In this document: in pieces, positions 11,770 to 55,091 of the stretch | Numbering within the stretch: position 1 is the first letter of the stretch | Layout of the letters: every line of letters starts with the position of its first letter | Assembly (NCBI GenBank): GCA_012861695.1 | Contig: JAAOOA010000002.1 | Coordinates: 19,134,303 to 19,198,302 of the forward strand | DNA: 64,000 bases | Direction: 5' to 3' | Source: Trematomus loennbergii | Taxonomy: Eukaryota > Chordata > Actinopteri > Perciformes > Nototheniidae | The notes under the pieces: model-generated | Seen by the model: the letters and a program-made list of their open reading frames with translations, nothing else | What the model was told of the DNA's origin: nothing | The model's database searches: none | Translations under genes and position numbers: made by a program

Positions 11770-12027
11770 TGAGTGGGTTGGGTTGAGTGGGCTCATTCTT
11801 CATCTCATTCTCAAACGTGCCATTTCTGCTGATAAGCCGTGTGACTTGGCCTCTCGTTTTATTTGTTGAAAATCTCGATCAAACTCCTACCTTAGTTGTT
11901 TGCCATCTACGACAACCTTTAACTTAGGATGTGTGCTAAACGAACAAGGTTAAATGTTTCCGATTTCTTTTTTTCAGTAAAGAGTGTCTTTATAATAATT
12001 TAAAGGGCAAGTAGATATATTCTTACT
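11770..12027 (-). pseudogene. Decayed antisense intronic gene in glud1 intron 10 (copy 1)
   Basis: On the minus strand, codons below 11,932 read HPKLKVVVDGKQLR, then a stop, then [13 protein letters not shown]. This aligns with the YPSVTVVVHGKDLRKRF...DFEEMKRQA core of the intact gene at 19,843-20,289. The N-terminal half and the middle exon are deleted. The leader exon and its GTAAG donor (exon end at 12,027) remain, as does the ISRE-like promoter. It cannot encode the protein but could still start an antisense transcript. Confidence 0.7.
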
Positions 12028-12136
12028 GGATCGTGTGGCTGGTTCAGGCGGTGTCGTGATGCTGCTCTGTTATTTCGGCGTAAGCTGGTGTCAGCTGATG
12101 TGATCTCTCTCCAAGAGTAACGATGTCTGGAGCAAC

Positions 12137-12196
12137 CTTTTTGTATACTCTCTCTTGATCACAAGCAGCCAATCATACAGTGGCTTTTTCACTTTC
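12137..12196 (-). promoter_or_regulatory. Antisense promoter, copy 1: ISRE-like, inverted CCAAT, altered TATA
   Basis: On the minus strand, GAAAGTGAAA (complement of 12,187-12,196) fits the interferon-stimulated response element core GAAANNGAAA. An inverted CCAAT box lies at 12,169-12,173. The TATA position reads TATACAAAAAG rather than TATAAAAAG, so it is probably weaker than in the other copies. It lies within glud1 intron 10, about 100 nt before exon 11. Confidence 0.6.
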
Positions 12197-12291
12197 ACTT
12201 GTGTAACTTGATGAACCCTGGTATTTGTTATCGACTCAGAAACAAAAGATATGTCTTTATTTTTCTAATGTTTCTCTTTGTTCCCTTCTAG

Positions 12292-12383
12292 TGTCTGTGC
12301 AGGAAAGTTTGGAGAGGAAGTTTGGCAAGCAGGGGGGGCCCATCCCTGTCGTACCTACTGCTGACTTCCAGGCCAGAGTTGCT
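12292..12383 (+). CDS. glud1: glud1 exon 11 (antenna and C-terminal domain)
   Basis: A 92-nt exon coding for the end of the Met codon, then [20 protein letters not shown] and [10 protein letters not shown]. It completes the antenna. The acceptor is CCCTTCTAG and the donor GTGAGT. This exon is present twice in copies 2 and 3 because of a transposon-linked rearrangement. Confidence 0.96.
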
Positions 12384-13180
12384 GTGAGTATCGTCTGCTA
12401 ACACACACTTTAAAAATATCTATAACAAACAAATGTGTTTTTTCTAATGTGTTGAAAACAATGCAGCTTTATAATACTTCATTAAAAATTGTATTAAAAA
12501 TATTTAGTCTTTAACAAATATTGTGCCTTCTGCGATATCAAGTATTGTGACAAAGTGTCTTGAACTTTTAGATGGTGACTGACGGATACATATTTGACCT
12601 TAACTGTATGACCAGTAGACTCCAATCAGCTTGAGTTATTCCTCTTAAACAAACCAGGAATGCACCAATCTAATATTTGACTTGAGTGCTATCGGCCTGT
12701 CGGCTGATCAAATGTGATTTGTCAACATTTATCTGTAACCAATTGCTAGACGACTCTGCCATGACTTCAGAGAGCAACTGGTGCTGATCATGTGTATGGT
12801 TTACAAATACAAATGAAAGTAAATTGGGCGCTGGGCATTGGTACAAACCCCTTCACCATGTCTACAGTACAGATTGTTGTTTAGTTGCTGTGAAATTAAT
12901 ACACATGTTGCGTCAAGCCTTTCCCTGTACTGTACCTATCCTATTACCTATACAGATTCTTAATGCACAAGTTACCAGAGCCAAGTTGGGACTAAATAAA
13001 TAAAATAAAAAATGTGTATTGAATTGACATGTAAAAACAAAAAGCATCTAGCAATCATGTAACCAAGGCTATTTCTTAATGAAAATAAACTGTTCTCTTA
13101 ATTGACTAAGTGATTGCATACAGTTTGTTTATTGAGTGTCCTCCTAGAGATTGACGCTAACATTCATCTTTCCCTTGCAG
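12384..13180 (+). other. glud1: glud1 intron 11
   Basis: A 797-nt intron with no gene seen. In copies 2 and 3, a large composite element with AAGGCCGGATTA ends is inserted near the equivalent of 12,645. Confidence 0.8.
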
Positions 13181-13243
13181 GGTGCCTCTGAGAAGGATAT
13201 TGTTCACTCTGGGTTGGCCTACACCATGGAGAGATCTGCCCGG
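13181..13243 (+). CDS. glud1: glud1 exon 12
   Basis: A 63-nt phase-0 exon coding for [20 protein letters not shown] and R. It is intact in copies 2 and 3 and carries one extra base in copy 4. Confidence 0.96.
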
Positions 13244-14662
13244 GTAAGTGATCGTACAGGAAGTAACACGTTCCTGCCTCTTTATAGTGCAGAGCCACTA
13301 TGTTATCTAGTATAATAAACGGATATGAAACACGCCACTTGCATTAGTGCAGTGGTTCATGTCCCTCATCTCACTGTAAACCAAATACATTTCCATCAAC
13401 TACAACAAAAACTGGGGAAATGTTTCACATACTTTCAAGAACATGACCTGCATGTTTCCTTTCACTTTTTTTGACCATGTAAATGAAATATTCAAAGTGA
13501 ACTTTGCCCTAAAACTTCACGTTTCACATACAAAAAGAATCCAGGCTTTCCCACTAAGCCTTTGACTGATTTCAAGACTTTCATGACTTTGCAAGGATAG
13601 CTCGGATACAGGAGTAAAGGATGCAAATAAACATCACGCAACCAACGAATAGACACAACAGCTCAAGTTTCGAGTGTTTATTGTAATAATAATTACAGAG
13701 AAACAGTCGTCCGGTTAGCAAGAACATAGCATGCAACCAACAAATCGACACAGCGACTCAATTTTCAATTTGTCATGCACACAAAAATTCCAGAAAGGCA
13801 GTAGTCGGTGTATAAAATATTAAATAAATACCTGTATCATTAATAAATGGTTTGATTTTGCGTCAGGAGGCTGTTAGATCCTTTGAGTCAGCGCCAACAG
13901 ACCTGTAGTAAACACTGTTGCTACTGCTGGCCACAGTAGCTAGGCAACTGTCAACGTTGACAAAACCTTAAAGTGGACCTATCATGCTATATTTGAATAA
14001 TATAGTGTAGGACCATACCTATATAAGGCATATTTATACTTTTTTTTTTCAAAATACCAAACAGATCATGCATTTTAGCCATGTCTCATTTTGCTCAATT
14101 TGACAATTTCTAGCTCTGTTTTAGCAAGGGCAGATTTCCAGCGCTTTCGAACAGCAATGGCCGTGGCTGTCTCCTCCTGATTGGTGGAGTTGGCCCAATA
14201 GCCGTAGCGCCACCGTCCTGACGTCAGGACAGTGTTCAAATCTGGATCAGTTTTTATCAGATCCGTTGCAGCCCCTTTTTTAGAGATTTGGGTATGGAGG
14301 AAAATAGAGAGGGTTGTGTTTTCTGACACTTGGTGAGTTCCCTGGAACACCGGGGACACATATTCATGTATAAAAGACGTACAAAAGTGCATTTTGCATG
14401 ATAGGTCCCCTTTAAATTAACTTTTTAATTGGTTAATCAATCTTTTTCAAAGTTTTTCCATAAATCAAAGTTTCACCTTAGTTTTGAAATTATTAAAAAG
14501 AATATAAAATGTGCAAGGTGACTTCCTAGTTCTGACGGTGTTTAATTAAAGGAACGGTATTCCGTTCTGGTAATTACCGTCAGCAAGAAGAAGGTGACCA
14601 GTCCCCCTGAGGTTGTTGCTGTTAGCCATCATAATAACACCTGTCCTCCTCTGCCTTTCTAG
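13244..14662 (+). other. glud1: glud1 intron 12
   Basis: A 1.4-kb intron with one MITE (13,972-14,411) and no gene. It lacks about 250 nt that is present in copies 2 and 3 upstream of the TTTTTCCATAAATCAA word. Confidence 0.8.
13972..14411. mobile_element. TTAA-flanked MITE present only in copy 1
   Basis: A 440-nt element whose left end AGTGGACCTATCATGC mirrors the right end GCATGATAGGTCCCCT, with one mismatch. TTAA lies on both sides (13,968-13,971 and 14,412-14,415). Copies 2 and 3 have a single TTAA at the same place (near 33,603 and 46,377), so the empty sites confirm a 4-bp target duplication of piggyBac type. No transposase is encoded. Confidence 0.9.
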
Positions 14663-14782
14663 CAAATCATGCGTACAGCAAGCAAGCACAACCTGGGTCT
14701 GGACATCAGGACGGCCGCCTACGTCAACGCCATCGAGAAGGTCTTCAAAGTCTACAACGAGGCAGGGCTTACCTTCACATAA
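14663..14782 (+). CDS. glud1: glud1 exon 13 (C-terminus and stop)
   Basis: A 120-nt exon coding for [20 protein letters not shown], then [19 protein letters not shown] and TAA. The acceptor is CTTTCTAG. The C-terminal YNEAGLTFT is diagnostic of animal GDH. Confidence 0.97.
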
Positions 14783-15670
14783 ATGGCCAATTCCGACCCT
14801 CAATTCCTCTCCCTGCCCTTACCTCCTGCTATTGATCGCCTTCTTCCACCCTCTAAACAGCCTTCAGAACATATCACTGTTTACCGCTGCTTTTTGGCTC
14901 TTCTACACACACGCGGACACACACACCACGAGACACTAGCCTGCTATATACCTTGTGATCTTTGTGCTGCCATTATACTGTATCTGCATCTCTGTTTAAA
15001 CATTGCCCTGTTCTGTTTTTTTTTCTGAGTTTATATTAAGAAAAATCAGAGAGAGAGAGAAAGTGAAATGCTGATCCTCCTTCTGCCCTCATATATAAAC
15101 GTTCATGATATTGTTGTATGGCAGCCATGTTCAGAGCGCCCATTTTGTGATCGCTGAGTGTAGGTGTGACCCTCAGATGACAGCACTACAGATGCTTTAT
15201 TTCAGAGAGTTCGGCCCCTTAAAGTTAATTTCAATTATAAGGGATAAACATTTAACTTAATATGAATAAAATAAAAATAATAAGTGTATTACTCTAGGTT
15301 TGTTGTCTCACTCTTCAGGTGTAAAGATTAGTAGTCAAGTTGCCAAGATTAAGATTCCCAACAAGATTTTTTGTTATTTCATAGTTGGTGTTTTTACTGT
15401 TCGAGATTTGACCGATGCTCATCTCCCCTTTTTTCCTGTTCTCCCGTCGCTTTGTCTCATATTAAAAGCCGCTTCTTCCCGACTCCTCCGCTAGCCTAGA
15501 CAGGGGAGCAGGGAGGGCGAGGGGTTGCTGTGAGCGCCCATCCCCTGGTTGAATTCTCCTCAGTTGTAGCTGTCCAGGTCCTTGACAATGAAATTATTTT
15601 GGAGGAAATGACTTTATATTTTTGTTTTATTCATTTTTTTGGAAACCAATAAAATGTTCAGACAAAGACA
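14783..15670 (+). other. glud1: glud1 3' untranslated region
   Basis: About 890 nt of 3' UTR from the stop to just after the AATAAA. It is closely repeated in copies 2 and 3 and truncated in copy 4. No microRNA-site claim is made. Confidence 0.85.
15648..15653 (+). terminator. glud1: glud1 polyadenylation signal AATAAA (copy 1)
   Basis: A canonical AATAAA followed by a GT-rich stretch (ATTGTGTTGCATC) about 20 nt downstream. It is preserved in copies 2 and 4 and reduced to CATAAA in copy 3. Confidence 0.8.
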
Positions 15671-16378: not shown

Positions 16379-16915
16379 TCATCTAGAATACAAAACATAA
16401 TTGAGGCATATCTTACATTGAATACTAACCGCCCTCAGTTTAAAAACAGCTGTACTACACCTATCTATATCTTCCGTTACTGTATTAAAATCTCCACCTA
16501 ATATAATTTTATAACCCACTGTTAAAATTTCTCTAAGTTTTCTAAATATTTGTAACTTATTTGTTGCGTCAGGGCCAGTATAAATATTAATAAGTCGATA
16601 TTTTTCATTTTTATAAAAACAATCCACCATAAGCAGCCTTCCTGGAATTATGTCCCTTCTTCTAATAATAGTAATGTCCCTTTCCTTGAAGAAAATGCCA
16701 ACTCCATCAGCTCTGCTATCTCCTATGGAGATAATACATTCTCCTTTGTGCCACATTTTACATACATCGTCAACATTCCCGGTGGTATTCAGTCTAAGTT
16801 CCTGCGTAAAGAGGAAATCATAGTTAGTGTCCAATAAATATTTCATTTTCCTCTCTCGAAAGTTCTTAGACTGAATACCACGTACATTCCAAGTAGCGAC
16901 GTTTATGAAGCTCAT
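16379..16915 (-). pseudogene. LINE endonuclease fragment (EEP fold)
   Basis: A 178-residue frame with EEP endonuclease motifs: TWNVRGI near the start, QELRLN (probable catalytic Glu) and GGDFNTV (Asp/Asn pair). It stops before the C-terminal SDH motif, and no reverse transcriptase follows. It can nick DNA only if the missing C-terminus is not needed, which is unlikely, so I call it a remnant. Confidence 0.75.
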
Positions 16916-17940: not shown

Positions 17941-17979
17941 TGTGGTGCATTTTCTGACCTGATGGTCAGCTGAGTTGCC

Positions 17980-19684: not shown

Positions 19685-19690
19685 TTTATT
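19685..19690 (-). terminator. Candidate poly(A) signal of antisense gene 2a
   Basis: AATAAA on the minus strand, about 155 nt beyond the stop codon at 19,843-19,845. The same word is kept in copy 3. This is inferred from position only. Confidence 0.45.
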
Positions 19691-19842
19691 GTGTAAGCAA
19701 CAGATTTTTCTAATAATTTCACAAAAGCATTTCATTTTCAGTTTATTATAGGGTACAAGACTGCTCCTCACCTCCTCCATGGCCTGCAGCGTCATAACAC
19801 TCAGAGGATACATTACCAATACACATAAAGCTTAGAAATCAG

Positions 19843-20289
19843 TTATTTATAATGATCCATCTTATTTTTTGTTTCATCTTTTTGAGTGGGTTGGGTTACC
19901 TCCTCCTCAGGCTCATTTTCTAATACCAAATGTTCCATTGCTGCTTGTAAGTCGACCTGCAGGGCCTGTCGTTTCATTTCTTCAAAATCTTCCAGAAACC
20001 TCTTCCTCAGGTCTTTGCCATGTACCACAACTGTTACACTAGGATATAAAGTTATGGTTCCGCCATTCTTGATAGGTGACTTGAGTCTGATTTGATTGTC
20101 TGTTGTAACTTCATTCAATTCTGGGTACTTTTCCTTCATTGCAGCCAGCCATTCTCTTACACGTGTGCTATAGAAAGTAATGCCAAATGGTACATAATTG
20201 CTGTCATGTTGATAGACAGTGTCTTTATTGCCATGCAGCGTCTTTTCTATGTTCTTGTCTTTTTCGAAATCTCGAGGAACGGTAGCCAT
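19843..20289 (-). CDS. Unknown 148-residue antisense intronic gene (copy 2a, intact)
   Basis: I do not recognise this protein. A splice acceptor (TTTCTTTGTTTTAATTTAG) abuts the ATG at 20,289, so this is a 3' exon of a spliced minus-strand gene. It starts MATVPRDFEKDKNIEKTLHG. A central conserved block follows (REWLAAMKEKYPELNE; IRLKSPIKNGGTITLYP; TVVVHGKDLRKRF; DFEEMKRQAL), and the C-terminus is acidic. There is no signal peptide or membrane segment, so it is probably soluble. The alternating-hydrophobic TITLYPSVTVVVHG looks like a beta hairpin. Homologous bodies occur at 11.8, 26.2, 39.5 and 53.8 kb, always downstream of the same ISRE-like promoter. A minus-strand AATAAA lies at 19,685-19,690. 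Confidence 0.7.
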   Translation of the reverse strand: MATVPRDFEKDKNIEKTLHGNKDTVYQHDSNYVPFGITFYSTRVREWLAAMKEKYPELNEVTTDNQIRLKSPIKNGGTITLYPSVTVVVHGKDLRKRFLEDFEEMKRQALQVDLQAAMEHLVLENEPEEEVTQPTQKDETKNKMDHYK

Positions 20290-20393: not shown

Positions 20394-20544
20394 CTTGTAT
20401 TTCTCTTGGTGTTGTGATGCTCTGGACTTCTCAGCAGGATGGAGATACTCAGGTTCTACAGCTGCTTCCTGAAGCCACAACACAAACCTCAGAACAGGAG
20501 TTTTGTCACAACCTATCCATAATATATCAAGTCTACCTCCCCTG
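20394..20544 (-). other. Candidate middle exon of antisense gene 2a
   Basis: On the minus strand, an acceptor ATTACAG and a donor AAATACAAG|GTACAA bracket about 150 nt. The stretch reads open (WIGCDKTPVLRFVLWLQEAA, then EYLHPAEKSRASQHQEKYK) in the phase that joins the downstream ATG exon. It is kept in copies 2b and 3 and absent from copies 1 and 4. The leader exon has no ATG, so this may be 5' UTR or an alternative coding exon. Confidence 0.45.
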
Positions 20545-20924: not shown

Positions 20925-21012
20925 TGGATCGGTGCTGGTTCAGGCGGGTGTCGTGATGTTGCTCTGTTATTTCGGCGTAAGCTGGTGTCAGCTGATGTGA
21001 TCTCTCTCCAAG
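20925..21012 (-). other. Leader exon of antisense gene 2a
   Basis: This non-coding first exon is inferred from the TATA position and from the donor CCA|GTAAGA (exon end at 20,925). It has no ATG. The same exon and donor occur in all five promoter copies. The start is estimated at 25-30 nt after the TATA box. Confidence 0.55.
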
Positions 21013-21035
21013 AGTAACGACGTCTGGGGCAACCT

Positions 21036-21093
21036 CTTTTTATACTCTCTCTTGATCACAAGCAGCCAATCATACAGTGGCTTTTTCACTTTC
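21036..21093 (-). promoter_or_regulatory. Antisense promoter 2a: ISRE-like, CCAAT, TATA
   Basis: Minus-strand order: GAAAGTGAAA (21,093-21,084), an inverted CCAAT box (21,070-21,066) and TATAAAAAG (21,044-21,036). GAAANNGAAA bound by STAT/IRF factors close to a TATA box is the classic layout of interferon-stimulated gene promoters in fish and mammals. Function here is inference. Confidence 0.65.
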
Positions 21094-24689: not shown

Positions 24690-25830
24690 GCTCTACCTCT
24701 ACCTCTCATTCTTCCTCTTCTCACTCTCACCCCACCTCTTCCTCCTCCTCTCACTCTCACCCACCTCTTCCTCCTCCTCTCACTCTCAGCCACCTCTTCC
24801 TCCTCCGCTCACTCTCACCCACCTCTTCCTCCTCCTCTCACTCTCACCCCACCTCTTCTCCTCCTCTCACTCTCACCCACCTCTTCCTCCTCCTCTCACT
24901 CTCAGCCACCTCTTCCTCCTCTCTCACTCTCACCCACCTCTTCCTCCTCCTCTCACTCTCACCCCACCTCTTCCTCCTCCTCTCACTCTCACCCCACCTC
25001 TTCCTCCTCCTCTCACTCTCACCCACCTCTTCCTCCTCCTCTCACTCTCAGCCACCTCTTCCTCCCCTCCCTCACTCTCACCCACCTCTTCCTCCTCCTC
25101 TCACTCTCAGCCCCACCTCTTCCTCCTCCTCTCACTCTCACCCCACCTCTTCCTCCTCTTCTCACTCTCAGCCCACCTCTTCCTCCTCCTCTCACTCTCA
25201 CCCCACCTCTTCCTCCTCCTCTCACTCTCACCCCACCTCTTCCTCTCATCTCACCCCACCTCTTCCTCCTCCTCTCACTCTCACCCCACCTCTTCCTCCT
25301 CTTCTCACTCTCAGCCCACCTCTTCCTCTTCCTCTCACTCCACCCCACCTCTTCCTCTCACTCTCACCCCACCTATTCCTCCTCCTCTCACTCTCACCCC
25401 ACCTCTTCCTCCTCCTCTCACTCTCACCCCACCTCTTCCTCCTCTTCTCACTCTCACCCCACCTCTTCCTCTCCTCTCACTCTCACCCCACCTCTTCCTC
25501 CACTCTCACCCCACCTCTTCCTCCTCCTCTCACTCTCACCCCACCTCTTCCTCCTCCTCTCACTCTCACCCCACCTCTTCCTCTCTTCTCACTCTCACCC
25601 CACCTCTTCCTCCTCCTCTCACTCTCACCCCACCTCTTCCTCTCACTCTCAGCCCACCTCTTCCTCCTCTTCTCACTCTCAGCCCACCTCTTCCTCTTCC
25701 TCTCACTCTCACCCCACCTCTTCCTCCTCTTCTCACTCTCAGCCCACCTCTTCCTCTTCCTCTCACTCTCACCCCACCTCTTCCTCCTCCTCTCACTCTC
25801 ACCCCACCTCTTCCTCTTCCTCTTTCTCCC
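24690..25830. repeat. ~30-bp C/T-rich minisatellite inside transposase sequence
   Basis: About 1.1 kb of imperfect units of CTCACTCTCACCCCACCTCT plus CTTCCTCCTC, some shortened. On the minus strand they read [12 protein letters not shown] three-unit version of the same array is still seen in the plus-strand relative at 42,765-42,845, which shows the ancestral state. Confidence 0.85.
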
Positions 25831-25849
25831 TCTTGCTCTCCTCTTCCTC

Positions 25850-26012
25850 TCCCTTCCCTCTTCCTCTTCCTCTTCCTCTTCCTCTTCCTCTTCCTCTTGC
25901 TCTCCTCTCGCTCTCGCTCTCGCTCTCGCTCTCGCTCTCGCTCTCGCTCTCGCTCTTGCTCTTCCTCTTCCTCTTCCTCTCGCTTTTCCTCTCGCTCTCG
26001 CTCTCGCTCTGT
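25850..26012. repeat. CTCTTC/CTCTCG simple-sequence tract
   Basis: A hexanucleotide tract joining the transposase minisatellite to the 3' part of antisense gene 2b. On the minus strand it reads ERERER and KRKRKR. Confidence 0.85.
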
Positions 26013-26346
26013 CAGGGCCTTTCGTTTAATTTCTTCAAAATCTCCATAAAACCTGTCCATTAGCTCTGTGCCTTTTACCAGAACTGTTCCACCAGGATAT
26101 ACAGTTATGGTACCGCCGTTCTTGATAGGTGACTTGAGTCTGATTGACTGGCTTGGGTAACTTCCTCGAAATGTGGGTACTGTAACTTCATTGCAGCCAG
26201 CCATCCACTTGCATGTGTCCTATAGAAAACAAGGTCCCCTATTTGACCATTTTCTTTGTATCTTTAAAGAGAGTGTCTTTATTATCTAGCAGCATATTGC
26301 GTCTGCGCTTTGGGCCGTCTGGTAAATCTTGAGCATTGGAAGCCAT
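25995..26346 (-). pseudogene. Antisense intronic gene, copy 2b (frameshifted, tail fused to repeats)
   Basis: The ATG at 26,346 follows the same acceptor (TTTTCATTTAG). The N-terminus MASNAQDLPDGPKRRRN is unlike that of 2a, then NKDTLF is shared. The first frame stops at 26,239-26,241. A second shift is needed before the conserved IRLKSPIKNGGTITVYP, VLVKGTELMDRF and DFEEIKRKAL block. After KRKALT the frame runs into ERER/KRKR and transposase-like RGGG repeats, giving an open frame to 25,566. It may be a pseudogene, or intact with assembly errors. Confidence 0.65.
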
Positions 26347-26448
26347 CTAAATGAAAACAAAGTGAAGAACCATTATTATTGGCAAACTACCATACTACTG
26401 ATAAATGGTACATCCTATACAGCACTCAGACTTGCTGTGTTATTGTAC

Positions 26449-26599
26449 CTTGTATTTCTCTTGGTGTTGTGATGCTCTGGACTTCTCAGCAGGATGGAGA
26501 TACTCAGGTTCTACAGCTGCTTCCTGAAGCCACAACACAAACCTCAGAACAGGAGTTTTGTCACAACCTATCCATAATATATCAAGTCTACCTCCCCTG
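26449..26599 (-). other. Candidate middle exon of antisense gene 2b
   Basis: Nearly identical to 20,394-20,544, with the same acceptor and donor words. Confidence 0.4.
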
Positions 26600-27030
26600 C
26601 TGTAATTTGTAATTATTGGGGATACAACTTCTAGCCTCTTGCCCCAAATGTATGGAACACGCAGCTAAATTGTAAAGCCGTCTGTATATAAAAGGTGCTT
26701 TGAAAAAGTATTTTCATTCAAGTTGTTTCAGTTCATGCTGTGGTTGCTAAAACAAGCTTTTAAAAAATACTATCCTTTTATGTCTCTTAGCTATTACATC
26801 ACTGGCAAGGCTTCTAATGTATATTTTAATGCAAGATAATTAGTTTTAAATATAAGTGTAACAAATCAAATAGCAATGATGTCAACAGTAATTTAGTAGT
26901 AATTTAGTAGATATATTCTTACTGGATCGGTGCTGGTTCAGGCGGTGTCGTGATGTTGCTCTGTTATTTCGGCGTAAGCTGGTGTCAGCTGATGTGATCT
27001 CTCTCCAAGAGTAACGACGTCTGGGGCAAC

Positions 27031-27089
27031 CTTTTTTATACTCTCTCTTGATCACAAGCAGCCAATCATACAGTGGCTTTTTCACTTTC
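27031..27089 (-). promoter_or_regulatory. Antisense promoter 2b: ISRE-like, CCAAT, TATA
   Basis: GAAAGTGAAA (27,089-27,080), an inverted CCAAT box near 27,062 and TATAAAAAAG (27,040-27,031) lie in the same order and spacing as in 2a. The leader-exon donor is at 26,922-26,921. Confidence 0.62.
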
Positions 27090-27165
27090 ACTTTTGTAAC
27101 TTGATGAACTGAACCATCAGGGTGTGTCAACCCTGGTAATCTTTAATCGATTCAGTCTGTTATCG

Positions 27166-29849: not shown

Positions 29850-31427
29850 ATCCTGATTGTAGGTTACTTTCCTGACAGCTGGAATCGTGGTCTCATAACA
29901 CCCATTTTAAAAACGGCGATAAATCTGACCCTAATAATTACAGAGGCATTTGTGTGAACAGTAACCTGGGGAAGGTCTTTTGTAGTATTATAAATTCCCG
30001 GCTTATAGACTTCCTTACGAAACACAATGTCCTGAGCAAAAGCCAAATTGGATTCTTACCAAATCACCGCACATCAGACCACATTTACACCCTACACACC
30101 CTAATTGACAAATATGTTAATCAAAATAAAAGCAAAATATTTGCCTGTTTCATTGATTTCCAAAAAGCATTTGACTCGATTTGGCATGTTGGTCTATTCA
30201 ACAAACTACTTCAAAGCGGTATAGGGGGTAAAACATATGACCTAATAAAATCTATGTACACAAACAACATGTGCAGCATCAAGATCGGACACAAAAGAAC
30301 AACCTTCATTTCTCAAGAACGGGGAGTAAGACAAGGATGCTGTTTATCACCGGCCCTGTTCAACATCTACATTAACGAACTGGCCACTATCTTAGAACAG
30401 TCCACAGCACCTGGGCTCACACTTCACAACAGAGATCAATTCCTGCTGTATGCAGATGATTTCATCCTGTTAAGCCCGACAAAAGAAGGACTTCAACAGA
30501 GTTTAAATATACTCGAAGGTTACTGTCAGACCTGGGCCATGGCAATTAACATAAAAAGACAAAAACAATGATATTTCAAAAAAGATCCAGATGTCAGGCA
30601 AACAATATTGACTTCACAATTGGGACACAGACAATAGAAAATTGCTCAGAATATAATTATTTAGGCCTGAAAATAAGTCCCACTGGAAGCTTTAATCAAG
30701 CTGTCAAGGAACTGAGAGAGAAAGCACGCAGGGCGTTTTATGCAATAAAAAGACAAATTCACATTCAAATTCCAATTTTAATTTGGCTTAAATGACTTCA
30801 ATCAGTAATACAACCCATCCTACTCTATGGAAGCGAAGTGTGGGGCCCACAAACAAACCAAACATTTGACAAATGGGAAAATCATCCAATAGAAAATGCT
30901 CACAATGAGTTTTGCAAACGCATCCTCCAGGTTCACAGGAGAACAACTAACAACGCCTGCAGAGCGGAATTAGGCACCTTCCCATTATTAATAAAAATCC
31001 AGAAACGATCAATTAAATATTGGCTACATCTAAAAGAAAGTGACCCCCACTCCTACCACCACAAAGCCCTGCAGCATCAAGAGATGAACAAGGGAAAGAG
31101 TCCCCTCTCTCAGCTCTAAGAGAGCTGCATTGTTGCAGGACAGTTTGTCTCTGCCTGCCACAGTCTGAGGGAACCGGAATGAGCAGATACACCAGGTCTC
31201 ACATCTTATGTATGTATGTATATCATATCTATTTTACATTAATGTATTGTGAATGAAATGAATCTGTATTCCTTGTAAAAAAAACAACAACAAAAAACAT
31301 GTTCTTAGCAGTTTGTTTATAACTGTTCATTTGTTAATTTGTATGTATTTTTGTATATATGTTACAACTACACAGAGCTTTGGCAATACTGTATGTAAAT
31401 ATGGTCATGCTAATAAAGCTATTGAAT

Positions 31428-34209: not shown

Positions 34210-35108
34210 ATGGCCAATTCCGACCCTCAATTCCTCTCCCTGCCCTTACCCTCCTGCTATTGATCGCCCTCTCCTGCCTTCTTCCACCCTCTAAACAGCC
34301 TTCAGAACATATCACTGTTTACCGCTGCTTTTTGGCTCTTCTACACACACGGGACACACACACCACGACACGGGCTAGCCTGCTATATACCTTGTGATCT
34401 TTGTGCTGCCATTATACTGTATCTGCATCTCTGTTTAAACATTGCCCTGTTCTGTTTTTTTTTCTGAGTTTATATTAAGAAAAATCAGAGAGAGAGAGAA
34501 AGTGAAATGCTGATCCTCCTTCTGCCCTCATATATAAACGTTCATGATATTGTTGTATGGCAGCCATGTTCAGAGCGCCCATTTTGTGATCGCTGAGTGT
34601 AGGTGTGACCCTCAGATGACAGCACTACAGATGCTTTATTTCAGAGAGTTCGGCCCCTTAAAGTTAATTTCAATTATAAGGGATAAACATTTAACTTAAT
34701 ATGAATAAATAAAAATAATAAGTGTATTACTCTAGGTTTGTTGTCTCACTCTTCAGGTGTAAAGATTAGTAGTCAAGTTACCAAGATTAAGATTCCCAAC
34801 AAGATTTTTTGTTATTTCATAGTTGGTGTTTTTACTGTTCGAGATTTGACCGATGCTCATCTCCCCTTTTTTCCTGTTCTCCCGTCGCTTTGTCTCATAT
34901 TAAAAGCCGCTTCTTCCCGACTCCTCCGCTAGCCTGGACAGGGGAGCAGGGAGGGCGAGGGGTTGCTGTGAGCGCCCATCCCCTGGTTGAATTCTCCTCA
35001 GTTGTAGCTGTCCAGGTCCTTGACAATGAAATTATTTTGGAGGAAATGACTTTATATTTTTGTTTTATTCATTTTTTTGGAAACCAATAAAATGTTCAGA
35101 CAAAGACA
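34210..35108 (+). other. Copy 2 3' UTR with AATAAA at 35,086-35,091
   Basis: Closely matches the glud1 3' UTR, including the polyadenylation signal. No other gene is seen. Confidence 0.8.
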
Positions 35109-38907: not shown

Positions 38908-39344
38908 GTAAGCGCACACACAATTAAAATAAAATGTGCTCAAACCACACAATCCAGCGCTGATGGAGCAGATGAACTGTCTTTTTTTGTTGTTGAATTC
39001 TTAATGAATTACACCTAGGATGTTTTTCCTTTTTCACCTTTTAATCTGGATTATTACTTAGTCATTATTATTTGGTCATGAATATTTTGTGATACAGCAA
39101 CAAATACACTATGTTAGATTTTTATAATATATAAACCATAAAGGGGAAATGTAAACAATAAGCAAGAGTCATGTCAACAATAAACAAGCTTTTATTGTGT
39201 AAGCAACAGATTTTTCTAATAATTTCACAAAAGCATTTCATTTTCAGTTTATTATAGGGTACAAGACTGCTCCTCACCTCCTCCATGGCCTGCAGCGTCA
39301 TAACACTCAGAGGATACATTACCAATACACATAAAGCTTAGAAA

Positions 39345-39793
39345 TCAGTTATTTATAATGATCCATCTTATTTTTTGTTTCATATTTTTGAGTGGTTGGG
39401 TTACCTCCTCCTCAGGCTCATTTTCTAATACCAAATGTTCCATTGCTGCTTGTAAGTCGTCCTGCAGGGCCTGTCGTTTCATTTCTTCAAAATCTTCCAG
39501 AAACCTCTTCCTCAGGTCTTTTCCATGTACCACAACTGTTACACTAGGATATAAAGTTATGGTTCCGCCATTCTTGATAGGTGACTTGAGTCTGATTTGA
39601 TTGTCTGTTGTAACTTCATTCAATTCTGGGTACTTTTCCTTCATTGCAGCCAGCCATTCTCTTACACGTGTGCTATAGAAAGTAATGCCAAATGGTACAT
39701 CATTTCTGTCATGTTGATAGGCAGTGTCTTTATTGCCATGCAGCGTCTTTTCTATGTTCTTGTCTTTTTCGAAATCTCGAGAACGGTAGCCAT
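39345..39793 (-). pseudogene. Antisense intronic gene, copy 3 (one-base lesions)
   Basis: Nearly identical to 19,843-20,289. One G is missing just after ATGGCTACCGTT, and one more near the C-terminus. The conserved block from RDFEKDKNIEKTLHG through DFEEMKRQALQ is open. Most of the internal differences I noticed from 2a are replacements (TVYQ/TAYQ, SNY/RND, QVD/QDD). It could be functional if the two deletions are assembly errors. Confidence 0.65.
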
Positions 39794-39895
39794 CTAAATT
39801 AAACAAGAAAGAACCATTATTATTATTGGCAAACCACCATACTACTGATAAATGGTACAGCCTATACAGCACTCAGACTTGCTGTGTTATTGTAC

Positions 39896-40053
39896 CTTGT
39901 ATTTCTCTTGGTGTTGTGATGCTCTGGACTTCTCAGCAGGATGGAGATACTCAGGTTCTACAGCTGCTTCCTGAAGCCACAACACAAACCTCAGAACAGG
40001 AGTTTTGTCACAACCTATCCATAATCCATAATATATCAAGTCTACCTCCCCTG
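39896..40053 (-). other. Candidate middle exon of antisense gene, copy 3
   Basis: Like 20,394-20,544 but with a 7-bp CATAATC-type duplication, which would shift its frame if coding. This favours a 5' UTR role. Confidence 0.4.
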
Positions 40054-40491
40054 CTGTAATTTGTAATTATTGGGGATACAACTTCTAGCCCCTTGCCCCA
40101 AATGTATGGAACACGCAGCTAAATTGTAAGCCGTCTGTATATAAAAGGTGCTTTTAAAAAGTATTTTCATTCAAGTTGTTTCAGTTCATGCTGTGGTTGC
40201 TAAAACAAGCTTTTAAAAAATACTATCATTTATGTACATGTCTCTTAGCTATTACATCACTGGCAAGGCTTCTAATGTATTTTTTAATGCAAGATAAATT
40301 AGTTTTAAATATAAGTGTAACAAATCTAAATAGCAATGATGTCAACAAGTAATTTAGTAGTAATTTAGTAGATATATTCTTACTGGATCGGTGCTGGTTC
40401 AGGCGGTGTCGTGATGTTGCTCTGTTATTTCGGCGTAAACTGGTGTCAGCTGATGTGATCTCTCTCCAAGAGTAACGACGTCTGGGGCAAC

Positions 40492-40551
40492 CTTTTTTTA
40501 TACTCTCTCTTGATCACAAGCAGCCAATCATACAGTGGCTTTTTCACTTTC
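40492..40551 (-). promoter_or_regulatory. Antisense promoter, copy 3: ISRE-like, CCAAT, TATA
   Basis: GAAAGTGAAA (40,551-40,542), an inverted CCAAT box near 40,524 and TATAAAAAAAG (40,503-40,493). The leader-exon donor GTAAGA begins at 40,383. Confidence 0.62.
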
Positions 40552-40630
40552 ACTTGTGTAACTTGATGAACTAGATGAACCATCAGGGTGTGTCAACCCT
40601 GGTATCTTTAATCGATTCAGTCTGTTATCG

Positions 40631-42320: not shown

Positions 42321-44455
42321 TACAGTTTTTCTCGATTGCTAACACACTAAAATTATACATAACGCACAATTATTTTAACTGACACTCAAAGAGCAAAACA
42401 TCAGCTCAAATCTCTAAAAACTCTAAACACGTTTTCAGCTTTTCACACAATTTGCAAATCAACATGACACTTTTTGCAAACCACTGCACACGTTTCTCCA
42501 CGTTAGACACAGGAATCTGACATAAAGTCACGTGTTAGCAGGTTTAAAACACTGATATTCAAAATGCCTCACACATGGACCAATGATCAAGAAACACTTT
42601 CCACCTGACCAAGCACCTGATTGCATAATTGTTGTCTCATCAATCAGGATGTCAGCACTATAAAAGACCACAGGTGAGTACTTTGTTACAGCAACAATGG
42701 AAGCCAACATGGACAACACTGACATGGAAGCAAGAGCAAGAGGAAGAGGAAGAGGAAGAGCTGGGCTGAGAGTGAGAGGAGGAGGAAGAGGTGGGGTGAG
42801 AGTGAGAAGAGGAGGAAGAGGTGGGGTGAGAGTGAGAGGAGGAGTTTTAAACACTCCACCATCATTCCTGTCCCCAAAAAGACAATCATCACCTGCCCCA
42901 ACGACTACCGCCCAGTAGCACTCACCTCCACATAATGAAGTGCTTTGAGCGGTTAGTCAAATTATTCATCACCTCCTCCCTCCCTGAATCTCTGGACCCC
43001 CTGCAGTTTGCCTACAGAGCAAACAGGTCCACAGACGACGCCATAGCCCTCACCCTCCACACTGCCCTCTCACACCTGGACCCGAAGAACAGGAACACAT
43101 ATGTGAGAATGCTGTTCATTGACTACAGTTCAGCATTCAATACCATTGTGCCCTCCAAGCTGGCCATCAAGCTCAGAGACCTCGGGCTCAACAGCGCCCT
43201 CTGTGACTGGATCCTGAACTTCCTGACGGGCAGACCCCAGGCAGTGCGGGTGGGAAATCACATCCTCCACCCTGATTCTCAACACCGGTGCCCCTCAAGG
43301 CTGCGTGCTCAGCCCTCTCCTCTACTCCCTGTTCACCCACGACTGCGTGGCCACACACAGCTCCAACACCATCGTGAAGTTTGCTGATGACACGACCGTC
43401 ATCGGCCAGATCACAGACGATGACGAGACGGCGTACAGAGAGGAGGTCGAAAACCTGACATCTTGGTGCCAGGATAACAACCTCCATCTCAACATCAGCA
43501 AAACAAAGGAGCTGATTGTGGATACAGGAAGCAGCAGGGAGAGGGACACGCCCCCATCGCCATCAATGGGACTACGGTGGAGAGAGTCAAAAGCTTCAGG
43601 TTCCTTGGGGTCCACATCACTGAGGACCTGACATGGTCTCTTCACACCACCACCATCACCAAGAAAGCTCGACAGCGGCTCTTCTTCCTCCGCAGGTTGA
43701 GGAGGTTCAAAATGGATTCCAGGATACTCTGCAACTTCTACAGGTGCACGATAGAGAGTATCCTCACTGGCAGCATGACGGCCTGGTACGGCAGCTGCAC
43801 CGACCTCGATCGTAAGGCTTTACAGAGGGTGGTGAAAACTGCACAGCACATCACCAGGACGGAGCTGCCATCCATGGAGGACCTTTACTCCCAGCGGCTC
43901 AGGAAGAAATCACTACGGATTATCAAAGACCCCCATCACCCCAGCCACAAACTGTTCTTTCTGTTGCCGTCTGGCAGACGTTACCGCAGCATCCTGGCAA
44001 GGACAAGAAGATTCGGAGACAGTTTCTTCCCGCGGGCAGTGAGACTGTTAAAAAATTGAACTGTTGAAACAACATCAAACATTCATCTGCTACTCAGTAG
44101 TATGTATCTAATACCTAATATATATATATATATCATTCCAATAACTTGTATATAGACTCGTACTGCACTATTCCACATCATAACTTTATTTCATTTTTAT
44201 AACTATTATTATTTTTGTATTGCTCATGCTCTTATTGTTATTATGTTATTATGTTGCATTGTTGGAGAAGCCTGTGACATAAGATTTTCAACTGCATAAT
44301 TACTCTGTAGCTATGTCAGATTGACAATAAAGAACCTTGAACCTTGAACCTTGAAGGAGGAAGAGGTGGGGTGAGAGTGAGAGGAGGAAGAATGAGAGGT
44401 AGAGGTAGAGCTGGAGGGAGAGGACGTGGACAAAGAAGAATACTCTCTAATGAAA
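42321..44455 (+). mobile_element. Tc1-like element, 5' part, interrupted by a LINE
   Basis: Starts TACAGTTTTTCTCGATTGCT, the inverse of the end seen at 23,546. Non-coding 5' sequence leads to an ATG at 42,697, whose product begins [20 protein letters not shown] and enters [11 protein letters not shown] repeats. The sequence resumes after the LINE at 44,356 and reaches GRGQRRTLSNEM-like codons, then ends. No DDE domain is present. Confidence 0.65.
42845..44355 (+). mobile_element. CR1/L2-type LINE (reverse transcriptase to 3' end)
   Basis: Frames 42,935-43,387, 43,305-43,631 and 43,577-44,059 form one reverse transcriptase with two shifts. Motifs: [41 protein letters not shown] and FADDTTV. 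Next come the FLGVHITEDLTWS region and a C-terminus ending RRFGDSFFPRAVRLLKN. The 3' end is a short repeat of ACCTTGA after AATAAAG, a hallmark of L2-type ends. It is inserted in the RGGG minisatellite. Confidence 0.85.
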
Positions 44456-49394: not shown

Positions 49395-50810
49395 ATGTCC
49401 TGTACCGTTGGAGGTCCCGCCGACTACTCTTCTGCCGGGGGTCCTGCCAATCCTATGTCCTGTGCCGTTGGAGGTCCCGCCGACTACTCTTCTGCCGGGG
49501 GTCTTGCCAACCCTATGTCCTGTCCGTTGGGGGTCCCGCCGACTACTCTTCTGCCGGGGGTCTGCCAACCTATGTCCTGTGCCGTTGGAGGTCCCGCCGA
49601 CTACTCTTCTGCCGGGGTCTTGCCAATCCTATGTCCTGTCCCGTTGGGGGTCCCGCCGACTACTCTTCTGCCGGGGGTCTGCCAACCCTATGTCCTGTGC
49701 TGTTGGAGGTCCCGCCGACTACTCCCTGCCGGGGGTCTTGCCAACTCCATGTCCTGTCCCATTGGGGGTCCCGCCGACTACTCTTCTGCCGGGGGTCTTG
49801 CCAATCCTATGTCCTGTGCCGTTGGAGGTCCCGCCGACTACTCTTCTGCCGGGGGTCTTGCCAACCTATGTCCTGTCCCGTTGGGGGTCCCGCCGACTAC
49901 TCTTCTGCCGGGGGTCCTGCCAGCCCTATGTCCTGTGCCGTTGGAGGTCCCGCCGACTACTCTTCTGCCGGGGGTCTGCCAACCCTATGTCCTGTCCGTT
50001 GGAGGTCCCGCCGACTACTCTTCTGCCGGCGTCCTTGCCAATCCTATGTCCTGTCCCGTTGGGGTCCCGCCGACTACTCTTCTGCCGGGGGTCTTCCAAC
50101 CCTATGTCCTGTGCTGTTGGAGGTCCCGCCGACTACTCCCCTGCCGGGGGTCTTGCCAACTCCATGTCCTGTCCCATTGGGGGTCCCGCCGACTACTCTT
50201 CTGCCGGGGGTCTTGCCAATCCTATGTCCTGTCCGTTGGGGGTCCCGCCGACTACTCTTCTGCCGGGGGTCCTGCCAACCCTATGTCCTGTGCTGTTGGA
50301 GGTCCTGCCGACTACTCTTCTGCCGGGGGTCTTGCCAATCCATGTCCTGTCCCGTTGGGGTCCCGCCGACTACTCTCCTGCCGGGGGTCTTGCCAACTCC
50401 ATGTCCTGTCCCATTGGGGGTCCCGCCGACTACTCTTCTGCCGGGGGTCTTGCCAACCTATGTCCTGTGCCGTTGGGGTTCGCTGAGTCCTGCCACTACG
50501 TCCAGTATCGTGGGGTCCTGCCAACCCCATGTCCTGTCCCGTTGGGGGTCCCGCCGACTACTGCTCCGCCGGGTTTCCTGCCAACACCAGATCCTGTCCT
50601 GTTGGGGGTCCCGCCGACACCTGCTCCGCCGATTTCCTGCTACACCATATCCTGTCCTGTTGGGGGTCCCGCCGACACCTGTCCCGCCGGGGGTCCTGCC
50701 AGCTCCATGTTCTGTTCTGTTGGGGTCCGCCGACACCGTTCCACCGGGGGTCCTGCCAACTCTGTGTCCTGTTCCGTTGGGGTCCAGTCGACACCAGCCC
50801 TTGCTCCATC
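49395..50810. repeat. 60-bp tandem array
   Basis: About 23 units of 58-61 nt containing GTCCCGCCGACTACTCTTCT and GCCGGGGGTC. Units are most uniform from 49,400 to 50,460 and degenerate toward the 3' side. Confidence 0.88.
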
Positions 50811-50899: not shown

Positions 50900-51155
50900 T
50901 CCTGCCCGGCCTCCGGAGCTGTCCCGTCAGCGCCTTCCTGCCTGTCCTCCGGAGTGTCCGTCAGCACCTTCCTGCCCGGCCTCCGGAGCTGTCCCGTCAG
51001 CGCCTTCCTGCCCGTCCTCCGGAGCTGTCCCGTCATGGCCTTCCTGCCCGTCCTCCGGAGCTGTCCCGTCAGCGCCTTCCTGCCCGTCCTCCGGAGCTGT
51101 CCCGTCAGCGCCTTCCTGCCCGTCCTCCGGAGCTGTCCCGTCGCCGCCTTCTTGT
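50900..51155. repeat. 36-bp tandem array
   Basis: About seven units with core CCTCCGGAGCTGTCCCGTCA. Since 36 is a multiple of 3, each unit encodes a fixed 12-residue repeat in any one frame. Looser, related GAGCCCGGCCTCCTGA units follow to about 51,400. Confidence 0.85.
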
Positions 51156-51592
51156 TCGCCCTCGAGCCCGGCCCCCTGAGTGCCGCGGTCTTTGCCTTCG
51201 AGCCCGGCCTCCTGAGTTCCCCAGCTGCGGTCTTCGCCCTCCAGCCCGGCCCCCTGACTCTTCCAGGCGCTGCCTTCGCCCGCGAGCCCGGCCTCCTGAC
51301 TCTTCAGCCACTGCCTTCGCTCTCATGCCCGGGCCCCTGAGTTCGCCCGCTGTGGCCTTCGCCCGCTGTGGCCTTCGCCCGCTGTGGCCTTCGCCCCTTT
51401 TTGGACTCTGCTTGCCCCCGGGCCGTCCACCGGGGACCCCTTCCGGGCCGTCCTCCGGACCCCTCCACCCACCCTTTTGGTCCTGGTTGTGCGTCCCTCC
51501 TCCGGGCCCCTCCGCCCACCCTTCTAGAGGTTTTGGACTTTTTGGGGTTTTCTTGGGACGTCTGGAATCCGTCCCTTGAGGGGGGGGGGTTC

Positions 51593-52004
51593 TGTTACGG
51601 TTTTGTATTTATGTTTCATTTTCCACCTTTTGTTTTGAAATGTTTTCTCCTTGTGTCTTCTCTGTTCCTTCTTCCTGTGTTTGCCTTCCTGTCGTTAGTT
51701 TCCTGGTGTGTCTGATTGTGTTCACCTGTTCCCTTGTGTTTCTGCCTCCCTTACCTCAGCGGTGTCTTGTCTTGTGATTACCCCTCCCTGTATTTAGTCT
51801 TGTCTCTTCCTTTGTTCCCTGTCGGTTCATTGTTGGTTTTTCCTGTCTCTCCCTCCATGTTGGTCATGGTCAGTTTTTGTACAACCTATTTGTTTCTTGC
51901 CATGTTTTGTTCAGCTTTTAAAATAAAGCTCGCTTTTTGTTTCGAGACCTTTTACCTTTTTTGATAGTCTGCATTTGGGTCCTACCCTTCCACGCATCCT
52001 AACA
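51593..52004 (+). repeat. 3' LTR of the non-autonomous element
   Basis: 412 nt with the same ends. It is about 36 nt longer than the 5' LTR, mainly around the segment near the AATAAA. Confidence 0.88.
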
Positions 52005-52239
52005 TTACTTTAGTTAGATGATGTCATAACTACAGTTGGCCACATGGTGGCACCAGAGTGTTTTGTTGCATGTCACCGCACCATATCAGTTCATGGTTGG
52101 TTGAAAGTGGTATAACAATTATAAATGTTACTATTGGTGATATTCAATGAGTAAAAAGTGATGAGGGGGGGTTGAGCTGGATGTGTTGGGGTATGTCTCT
52201 TCTGCCTGGGGCCCCCAGAGTGTCTTGCAGCGCCACTGG

Positions 52240-52344
52240 GTACCTGCAAAGGTTTGGGGCCAGTGTGTGAGCATCGGTGAGATTGATGGAGCCATCTACA
52301 ACGCTGATGGCATCGACCCCAAAGCACTGGAGGAATACAAACTG
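52240..52344 (+). pseudogene. glud1: Copy 4 glud1 exon 7 remnant
   Basis: Only the part after the second GTACCTGC remains, preceded by the end of the insertion (from about 52,165). The acceptor and the GFGNVG codons are deleted. It has C-to-A and one-base-loss changes. Confidence 0.82.
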
Positions 52345-52570
52345 GTACCAGCACAACTGCCTTCCCCTCACTTCTGTCTGCTTTATCCTTCTTGTCATCT
52401 CCCCCCTCTGTTTCTCTTACTAAAATAATCAAGTCATTGTCTTATCTGACTTATTTAATTCTTACCTTACATCTCAGTCAGAGGATTTTTTCTCCTGGAA
52501 ATACACTTTTTTCCCAACATTTTTCCCAAACAGTCAAATATTCACGTGTGTGTCTCTTTACTTTCTGCAG

Positions 52571-52701
52571 CAAAATGGCACCATTGTGGGCTTCCCAGGA
52601 GCCAAACCCTATGAAGGGAGCATTTTGGAAGCTGAATGCCACATCCTGATCCCTGCCGCCGGAGAAAAGCAGCTCACAACGCCCGAAGGATCAAGGCCAA
52701 G
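52571..52701 (+). pseudogene. glud1: Copy 4 glud1 exon 8 (7-nt deletion)
   Basis: Like the functional exon, including GTGGGC, but GCGTAAC is lost in CAGCTCACGCGTAACAAC, which shifts the frame. Confidence 0.85.
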
Positions 52702-52826
52702 GTAAACCCTCACTTTGATTTACCCAAGGTGCTTTGCTTAAATTGGCGTTTGACTCCACACGAGTAAGGACAGGGAGACTTTGTTGCAGTCATGTAAAGT
52801 GTGTGTTGTATTTCATGTATTTTTAG

Positions 52827-52904
52827 ATCATTGCTGAAGGTGCCAATGGTCCCACCACCCAGATGCTGACAAGATCTTCCTGGAGACAACGTCATGGTTA
52901 TTCT
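52827..52904 (+). pseudogene. glud1: Copy 4 glud1 exon 9 (three one-base losses)
   Basis: 78 nt instead of 81, with losses in ACCCCAG, GAGAACAAC and ATTCCTG. Three separate single-base losses in a short exon are also what poor consensus accuracy would give. Confidence 0.85.
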
Positions 52905-53325
52905 GTAAGCGCACACACACAATTCAAATAAAATGTGCTCATACCACACAAATCCAGCGCTGATGGTGCAGATGAACTGTATTAATCTGGATTATGACTT
53001 AGTCTCTATTATAGTCATTATTATTTGGTCATGAATATTTTGTGATACAGCAAAAAATACACTGTTAGATTTTTACAATATATAAACCATAAAGGAGAAA
53101 TATAAACAATAAGCAAGAGTCATGTCAACAATAAACAAGCTTTTATTTTGTAAGCAACAGATGTTTCTAATATTTTCACAAAAGCATTTCATTTTCAGTT
53201 TATTACAGAGTAATCATTTCCTTCCCATATCTATATTTAAAATCAGTACAGGGTAAATGTTGTAATAATTCAACCCCACAGGCAAGTGAGGACCAAACAG
53301 GCTAAAGACTTTGTTCCTCCTGCAG

Positions 53326-53449
53326 GACATGTACCTGAATGCTGGCGGTGTGACAGTGTCTTATTTCGAGTGGCTGAAGAATCTCAACCATGTCAGCTAT
53401 GGAAGACTGACCTTCAAATATGAGAGGGACTCCAACTACCACCTGCTCA
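53326..53449 (+). pseudogene. glud1: Copy 4 glud1 exon 10 (sequence intact)
   Basis: All 124 nt and both splice sites match functional exon 10. It is the only other surviving copy of this exon. Confidence 0.85.
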
Positions 53450-53674
53450 GTGAGTACAAGACTGCTCCTCACCTCCTCCATGGCCTGCAGCGTCATAACA
53501 CTCAGAGGATACATTACCAATACACATCAAGCTTAGAAAACTGTTATAATGGTCCATCTAAGCAATATTTTTCTGTTTTCTTTTGAGTGGGTTGGGTTGA
53601 CAGGGCTCATTCTTCGGGTGCTATTCTTAAACGTGCCATTTCTGCTGATAAGTTGTGTGACTTGGCCAGTTCTT

Positions 53675-54009
53675 TTATGCTGGAAAAGCTCCATCAAACC
53701 TCTCCTTTATTTCGCCTTCTACTACAACTGTTAATGTAGGATATACAGATATTGTACCGTGTCTATCTAACTTGAGTCTGATTTCAGTGTCGTCTGTTTC
53801 TGGCTGGAGTTCTGGGTACTTTTGCATAATTGCGGTCAGCCAGTCCCCACGTTTGCTAAAGCAAATATGGTTACATATATCACCATTTCTTTTTCGATCA
53901 ATATAGAGAGTGTCTGATGTTCACGCAGCGTCCTTTCTCTGATCGTTTTCCTTTTTCCAGCACTCGCTCCTTCAGGATATACGAAATCTCGAGCTGCACC
54001 GGCAGCCAT
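53675..54009 (-). pseudogene. Antisense intronic gene, copy 4 (divergent, one frameshift)
   Basis: The ATG at 54,009 follows the conserved TTTGAATTTAG acceptor. The start is MAAGAARDFVYPEGASAGKR. After an apparent one-base loss near 53,918 the frame reads DTLYIDRKRNGDICNHICF, then DWLTAIMQKYPELQPETDD and TISVYPTLTVVVEG, ending DGAFPA and TAA. The fold-level pattern matches 2a (WLAAMKEKYPELNE; TITLYPSVTVVVHG), but most residues differ. It is shorter at the C-terminus, at about 111 residues. Confidence 0.65.
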
Positions 54010-54189
54010 CTAAATTCAAACAAAGAAAGACCATTATTATTGCAAATTACCGTACTACTGATAAATGGTACAGCCTATATAGCACTTTAAATTGTAAAGC
54101 CGTGAAAGATGCTTTAAAAAGTATTTTCATTCAAGTTGTTTCAGTTCATGCTGTCGTTGCTAAAGCAAGTTTTTAAATATACTATTCTT

Positions 54190-54656
54190 AGAGTCCACAA
54201 CCTTCATTATTTGTTTTTAAAGCACTAAATGGGCTGGCTCCGGCCTATATAGCTGAACTCCTCCAGCGCTACACCCCAGCCAGAGCTTTAAGGTTTGCTT
54301 ACCAGCTGCTGCTGGTAGTGCCCAAGACCAGGCTTAAAACCAGAGGGCACCGAGCCTTCGCAGCAGCTGGCCCTAGGCTCTGGAACACTCTGCCCCTCCA
54401 TGTGAGGTCGGCCCAGACCCTAGAGTTTTTTAAATCACTAAAGACTCACTTCTCTCTCTCTGGCTTTCTAGTTAGAGCGGAGCACGACTCCTGACTTTTC
54501 CTTGTGTTTTTTTTTTTTTTTTTTACATATCTGTTGTAATTATTGTCTTTTATTGTGATTGTAGTAATGTTTTATTACATGTACAGCACTTTGGCTCGAC
54601 CAAAAATCGCTTTTAAATGTGCTTTATAAATAAAACTTGATTTGATGACACGCCTT
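54190..54656 (+). mobile_element. CR1/L2-type LINE 3' fragment
   Basis: A 5'-truncated C-terminal piece encoding FKALNGLAPAYIAELLQRYT, then PRLWNTLPLHVRSAQTLEFF and a TGA at 54,492-54,494. The 3' end is AATAAAACTTGATTTGA. It is inserted in the intron of antisense gene 4. Confidence 0.8.
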
Positions 54657-54919
54657 GTCTTTATGTACAGGTTTCTGGGCTTTAACATCACTGGCAAGGC
54701 TTCTACTGTATTTTCAAATGCAAGATAAATTGGTTCTAATTATAAGTGTAAAAAATCAAAATAGCAATTATGTCAACAATAATTTAAAGGACAAGTAGAT
54801 ATATTCTTACTGGATCGGTGCTGGTTCAGGCGGTGTCGGTGATGCTGCTCTGTTATTTCGGCGTAAACTGGTGTCAGCTGATGTGATCTCTCTCCAAGAC
54901 TAACGATGTCTGTAGCAAC

Positions 54920-54975
54920 CTTTTTTTATACTCTCTCTTGATCACAAGCAGCCAATCATACAGTGCTTTTTCACT
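54920..54975 (-). promoter_or_regulatory. Antisense promoter, copy 4: ISRE half-site only
   Basis: TATAAAAAAAG (about 54,930-54,920) and an inverted CCAAT box are kept, but the ISRE-like box has lost six bases and reads AAGTGAAAAAGC, leaving one GAAA. The leader-exon donor GTAAGA begins at 54,810. Confidence 0.6.
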
Positions 54976-55091
54976 TGTGTAACTTGATGAACTAGATGAA
55001 CCATCAGGGTGTGTCAACCCTGGTATTTGTTATCGACTCAGAAACAAAAGATATGGCTTTATTTTTCTAATGTCTCTTTGTTCCCTTCTAG

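Follow-up and report, generated by a model that had tools for sequence, protein, structure and literature searches.

Does the glud1 gene of Trematomus loennbergii carry, on the opposite strand of one of its introns, a protein-coding gene that interferon could switch on? This question arises from a 64,000-nucleotide stretch of contig JAAOOA010000002.1 (hereafter the window, with positions counted from its first letter), in which we found five minus-strand cassettes, each at the homologous site of a present or former glud1 intron 10. A cassette consists, in order, of an interferon-stimulated response element (ISRE, GAAAGTGAAA) or its remnant, an inverted CCAAT box, a TATA-like box, a short leader, the splice donor GTAAGA and, in four of the five, an acceptor touching the ATG of a small open reading frame (ORF). 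We favour the reading that these are members of a protein-coding family, antisense in intron 10, which would be induced by interferon through the ISRE, likely encodes a small antiviral effector and has a coding exon that likely diversified under selection; we hold this to be probable, though well short of certain. Fast coding change would suit a gene engaged in an arms race with viruses, and the coding exon of the cassette is of greater interest than the promoter.

Divergence of the coding exon and its flanks

Among the cassettes, numbered 1 to 5 along the window, an uninterrupted ORF is present in copy 2 alone (148 amino acids, 19843..20289, minus strand), with its ATG at 20289 directly after the acceptor TTTAG. 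Between copies 2 and 3, there were no differences from the ISRE to the TATA box (0/69), one in the leader (1/111), and 18/574 in the whole intron (10/224 at its two sampled ends), against 88/334 in the coding exon (sampled intron ends versus coding exon, Fisher p = 2 × 10–12). The coding exon is therefore about eight times as divergent as the adjoining intron. When the same pair was read in 40-base steps, identity stayed at 93% or above through the intron and fell to 65% in the first coding step, so that the fall coincides with the ATG. For copies 2 and 5, the differences were 3/63 from ISRE to TATA box, 7/111 in the leader, 27/225 at the sampled intron ends and 149/433 in the coding exon (sampled intron versus coding exon, p = 2 × 10–10), and only 3/90 in the 3' untranslated region that follows. 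The intron of copy 5 holds ~0.5 kb of other DNA and so is not comparable over its full length; in 40-base steps, the pairwise alignment of copies 2 and 5 is noisier and shows no clean step at the ATG. The matches to glud1 exons in the array of glud1 copies, some of them to partial exons, are 92–100% identical, which leaves the nested gene's coding exon as the exception.

Replacement (dN) and synonymous (dS) changes were estimated by Nei-Gojobori counting on codon blocks that were set by hand, with unalignable stretches left out; the number of codons compared was 103 of 148 for copies 2-3, 73 for 2-5, 57 for 3-5, 37 for 2-1, 27 for 5-1, and 129 for 2-4. For copies 2-3, dN was 0.331 and dS was 0.117 (dN/dS = 2.83), that is, dN exceeded both dS and the flanking neutral rate, as diversifying selection would have it. 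In a codon bootstrap the fraction with dN ≤ dS was 0.001, Fisher's test gave p = 0.005, and simple neutral simulations reached the ratio at a frequency of 0.001; the core part alone gave a Fisher p of 0.047 and a bootstrap value of 0.014. The remaining ratios were 1.75 (2-5), 1.92 (3-5), 2.07 (2-1), 0.73 (5-1) and 0.52 (2-4), hence above one in four of the six pairs. Significance was computed for pairs 2-3 and 2-5, the latter with a bootstrap value of 0.026, a neutral simulation value of 0.022 and a Fisher p of 0.21. For a non-coding or merely decaying sequence, a ratio near the simulated value of 0.85 would be expected, and the ratio for copies 2-3 lies above it. Until the copies decayed, at any rate, the ORF was thus likely translated and replacement changes were likely favoured.

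A different history would have the coding exons as old, distinct alleles or paralogues, with gene conversion having recently homogenized the promoter, leader and intron only. Not only does the drop in identity sit at the ATG, but the coding dS of 0.117 between copies 2 and 3 is also higher than the ~3–4% divergence of the intron, which implies some extra age in the coding exon; this leaves room for conversion of the flanks and is a point against the reading that we favour. However, old divergence under purifying selection predicts dN < dS, whereas the dN observed was 2.8 times dS (bootstrap 0.001), so this history would still require diversifying selection, only earlier. We give it appreciable but less than even weight. 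Tentative, and less probable again, is the notion of an interferon-inducible 'effector slot' in the intron of glud1, a housekeeping metabolic gene, in which gene conversion would keep promoter, leader and intron alike ahead of a hypervariable coding exon, such that duplication of glud1 fragments would breed new antiviral proteins of a family not described before, all governed by a common switch.

It could also be argued that the cassettes are non-functional remnants of a dead family that was copied passively, with one frame open by chance or through recent death, and copies 1, 3, 4 and 5 are indeed broken or frameshifted. Nevertheless, dead copies should diverge at the rate of the intron, not about eight times faster, nor would their changes be expected to fall mainly at replacement sites. 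Moreover, there is a second intact relative, P0001 (see below), and decay looks later than divergence. We therefore consider this explanation unlikely and return to a family that was likely, at least for a time, under diversifying selection.

Promoter, splice signals and state of the five copies

An earlier note on this DNA, written from its letters, had described five minus-strand cassettes with an ISRE or its remnant, and a five-copy alignment bore this out: the ISRE is exact in four copies, and copy 5 lacks 7 bases of it. The other claimed elements were also recovered, namely the inverted CCAAT box (ATTGG), the TATA-like box (TATACAAAA in copy 1) and the GTAAGA that ends the leader, each in 5/5 copies, as well as an acceptor touching the ATG in all copies except copy 1 (TTTAG|ATGGCT in copies 2–5). 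The location given as intron 10 is correct, because the cassette is placed after exon 10 and before exon 11 of the 13-exon glud1.

All features of cassette 2 are on the minus strand. A motif scan of the window placed its ISRE GAAAGTGAAA at 21084..21093, and the inverted CCAAT box follows at 21066..21070 and the TATA box TATAAAAAG, found by sequence reading and motif scan, at 21036..21044. The predicted untranslated leader exon of ~90 nt (20925..21014) ends before GTAAGA, its start being set ~30 nt from the TATA box. An optional internal untranslated exon, between CTTCAG and GTACAA, is predicted at 20394..20468; it is identical in copies 3 and 4 and agrees with the second junction that the earlier note had proposed. 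Behind the coding exon, a possible poly(A) signal, AATAAA, lies at 19742..19747, and a second is found at 19685-19690. The ISRE (GAAANNGAAA) thus stands in the proximal promoter with a TATA-like box ~40 bases downstream, the arrangement sought in the promoter of an interferon-stimulated gene (ISG).

The motif GAAAGTGAAA occurs six times in the window versus 0.46 expected from shuffles; four of these sites belong to cassettes, on the minus strand at 12187, 21084, 27080 and 40542, and the remaining two (15059 and 34498) belong to a duplicated plus-strand segment that lies past exon 13 of glud1. Likewise, GAAANNGAAA followed 20–45 bases later by TATAWA was found seven times versus 0.10 expected, three times in cassettes 2, 3 and 4 and otherwise as two duplicated pairs elsewhere. 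Both counts are inflated because the copies duplicate one another and are not independent. We also noted that the plus-strand sites form a second duplicated combination, GAAAGTGAAA then TATATAAA, at 15059-15099 and 34498-34538, on the strand opposite to the cassettes. The first of them begins ~280 bases past the stop codon of glud1, and both ISRE-TATA pairs adjoin a GA-rich stretch.

The other cassettes, also on the minus strand, are in various states. Cassette 1 (11650..12215; ISRE 12187-12196, leader end 12027 followed by the GTAAGA donor) is decayed, and its coding exon is reduced to a C-terminal part at about 11943-11827 that contains a stop. The frame is broken in cassette 3 (25990..27118; ISRE 27080-27089, ATG at 26346) and in cassette 5 (53450..55010; shortened ISRE near 54970, ATG at 54009), which together with copy 1 make up the decayed copies. 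Cassette 4 (39246..40580; ISRE 40542-40551, ATG at 39793) misses one base near the ATG and otherwise has 129 codons of nearly the copy 2 protein; one-base indels are scattered over this copy, hence an assembly error is possible there. The claim of a small protein in copies 2–5 thus stands for copy 2, which is open, and fails for copies 3 and 5, which are broken, and for copy 4, which is frameshifted after the ATG. The coding end of copy 3 runs into a long minisatellite of ~30-base units (25566-26204; 24841-25997), as a result of which the frame continues as an Arg/Glu-rich tail.

The proposal that a coding gene driven by an ISRE-type promoter lies within glud1 and was copied along with it fits the tests that were run, including the excess of amino acid changes, and makes a sound working model. 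What does not fit its original form is that the intact ORF of copy 2 is in a truncated glud1 segment, while it is the decayed copy 1 that lies in the complete gene.

The predicted protein and its likeness to known systems

In a library of 5.8 billion proteins that includes those of fish, P0001 was the sole relative found, by a word-based search, which can detect only relatives that have short exact words in common with the query. It is a near-identical ORF from a 2312-base ENA contig, 97% identical over 95% of the 148-residue query. No Pfam family scored above the cut-off, and a search of PDB sequences gave a best E of only 0.12; the absence of a recognized family, as first remarked from the letters, is therefore upheld by these searches. 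One piece of copy 5 matched PUS7L_N below threshold (E = 0.034), which we took as chance. Among viral contigs, the protein query yielded four stretches that matched a pattern, none of which was confirmed; the search for viral relatives gave no exact match to a promoter 34-mer, and no relative of the protein was found in phage records.

Could the ORF instead derive from a mobile element, with the promoter being that of the element? ORFs that read as pieces of long interspersed nuclear elements (LINEs) and of long terminal repeat (LTR) elements are common in the window. However, a LINE ORF taken from this window had 17 matches in the same protein library, as opposed to one for the cassette protein, so the library offers no support for a transposon ORF, the case that the earlier note had named as refuting its proposal. 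No transposon domain was found by Pfam, all five copies occupy equivalent positions in glud1, and a tblastn search of the window revealed no further clear copy. A mobile origin accordingly has very little probability in our view. The cassette is likely a small protein gene of no recognized family, likely of fish origin and likely switched on by interferon.

At the level of fold, the best Foldseek row was RNase H3 (3vn5), with a probability of 0.99 but an E of 0.08, and the best row in a viral fold library had an E of 0.0096; other Foldseek/VIA rows were Flpp3, spermine synthase, KA1 and METTL16, and RnlA. Alignment to RNase H3 N-domains by hhalign, a comparison picked after the fold list had been seen, gave an E of 7 × 10–4, and none of 200 column shuffles reached its score. 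The predicted core may thus weakly resemble TBP-like domains. With the TBP-like domain of bacterial RNase H3 it would share the predicted order beta-alpha-beta-beta-beta-beta-alpha and a similar GTITxYPSxTVVVxG hairpin; the match is weak and at fold level, however, and 148 residues are too few to include an RNase H domain as well.

No description of an antisense ISG nested in glud1 and copied with it was found among the matches listed in a literature search, and a query on introns versus coding exons yielded no paper. The finTRIM (fish novel TRIM) genes differ from the cassette in encoding large multidomain TRIM proteins and are not known to be nested antisense. A closer likeness in layout is offered by the gig1-like genes of salmon, which are fish-specific, antiviral ISGs that stand in tandem, respond to infection and have an exon of 98–136 bp followed by a large exon with the whole ORF (PMC12247413). 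In two of three copies, poly(I:C) activates the promoter, with open chromatin and the H3K27ac mark appearing at exon 1 (PMC12247413). Gig1 and gig1-like genes (PTHR38706) and the cassettes share a short first exon (~90 nt predicted here), an ORF wholly on exon 2, and tandem copies, where the layout here is predicted from splice signals and compared with salmon gene models. The likeness is one of layout, and the salmon proteins have 222–240 amino acids as compared to 148 here; glud1 is not mentioned in the main text of PMC12247413.

As to the promoter, LIA, a non-classical MHC class I gene of salmon, carries two ISREs, and mutating either abolished the type I interferon response (PMC11695323). 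LIA shares the ISRE 10-mer GAAAGTGAAA, functional by mutation and within 150 bases of the start codon, and differs in having two ISREs plus a GAS-like element and an unrelated protein (PMC11695323).

In the mechanism that we propose, interferon or viral RNA signalling would lead IRF or ISGF3 to bind GAAAGTGAAA ~40 bases upstream of the TATA box. The minus strand would then be transcribed and the short leader spliced to the single predicted coding exon, giving a protein of ~148 residues. Its core is predicted to be an alpha-beta sandwich similar to the TBP-like N-domain of RNase H3, and the protein may therefore have a viral nucleic acid or a viral protein as its binding partner. Tandem duplication of the 3' half of glud1 would have copied the nested gene along with it. 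Promoter, leader and intron stayed alike as the coding exons diverged, presumably driven apart by selection, and most copies have since decayed. If expression is confirmed, this would be a lineage-restricted antiviral family with only one 97% relative elsewhere in the word-based search. Lying antisense within an intron of a metabolic gene, and combining a constant promoter, leader and intron with a changing coding exon in a single array, it would provide a compact natural experiment on the birth, copying and loss of immune genes. It would also let one ask whether transcription of the host gene affects the nested, induced one.

The glud1 array and other elements of the window

The host gene was mapped by tblastn with a GLUD1 query sequence. 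A complete copy with all 13 exons in order occupies 500..14782 on the plus strand, its protein match starting at 500, with exon 10 at 11510-11635, exon 11 at 12295-12383 and exon 13 at 14663-14782, where the stop is at 14782; cassette 1 takes up most of its intron 10. Further along the window is an array of partial glud1 copies. Exons 1–6 had no tblastn match in the window outside the complete copy, and several of the partial copies contain frameshifts or stops, hence they look like broken copies. Exons 10 and 11 flank copies 1 and 5 on both sides. Elsewhere, the adjoining exons are exons 9 and 11 at copy 4, exon 9 at copy 2, and exon 11 at copy 3, meaning that exon 10 is retained only at copies 1 and 5 and that exon 11 was matched beside copies 1, 3, 4 and 5 and not beside copy 2. 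With exon 10 lost beside copies 2 and 4, AATAAA comes close behind the antisense ORF in both (19740-19753; 39246-39259).

These exons bear on a further alternative, in which the antisense transcript would be a regulatory RNA acting on glud1 and not through a protein. If an antisense transcript of copy 1 ran on to the next AATAAA, it would pass through exon 10. Copies 2 and 4 no longer have exon 10 next to them, however, and an excess of replacement changes is unexpected of an untranslated RNA. We give this alternative scant credence and retain a protein-coding family as the better account.

Between the glud1 pieces, the stretches 16379-16915 (minus strand), 29954-30571 (plus strand) and 42935-44059 (plus strand) comprise LINE endonuclease matches and what we take to be reverse-transcriptase fragments. 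The stretch 49405-50725 is a minisatellite of ~59-base units inside long plus-strand open frames. Lastly, what we take to be a Gypsy-like LTR element spans 57892-62257; its ends (57892-58611 and 61535-62257) are 98.5% identical, which suggests that the element is likely young.
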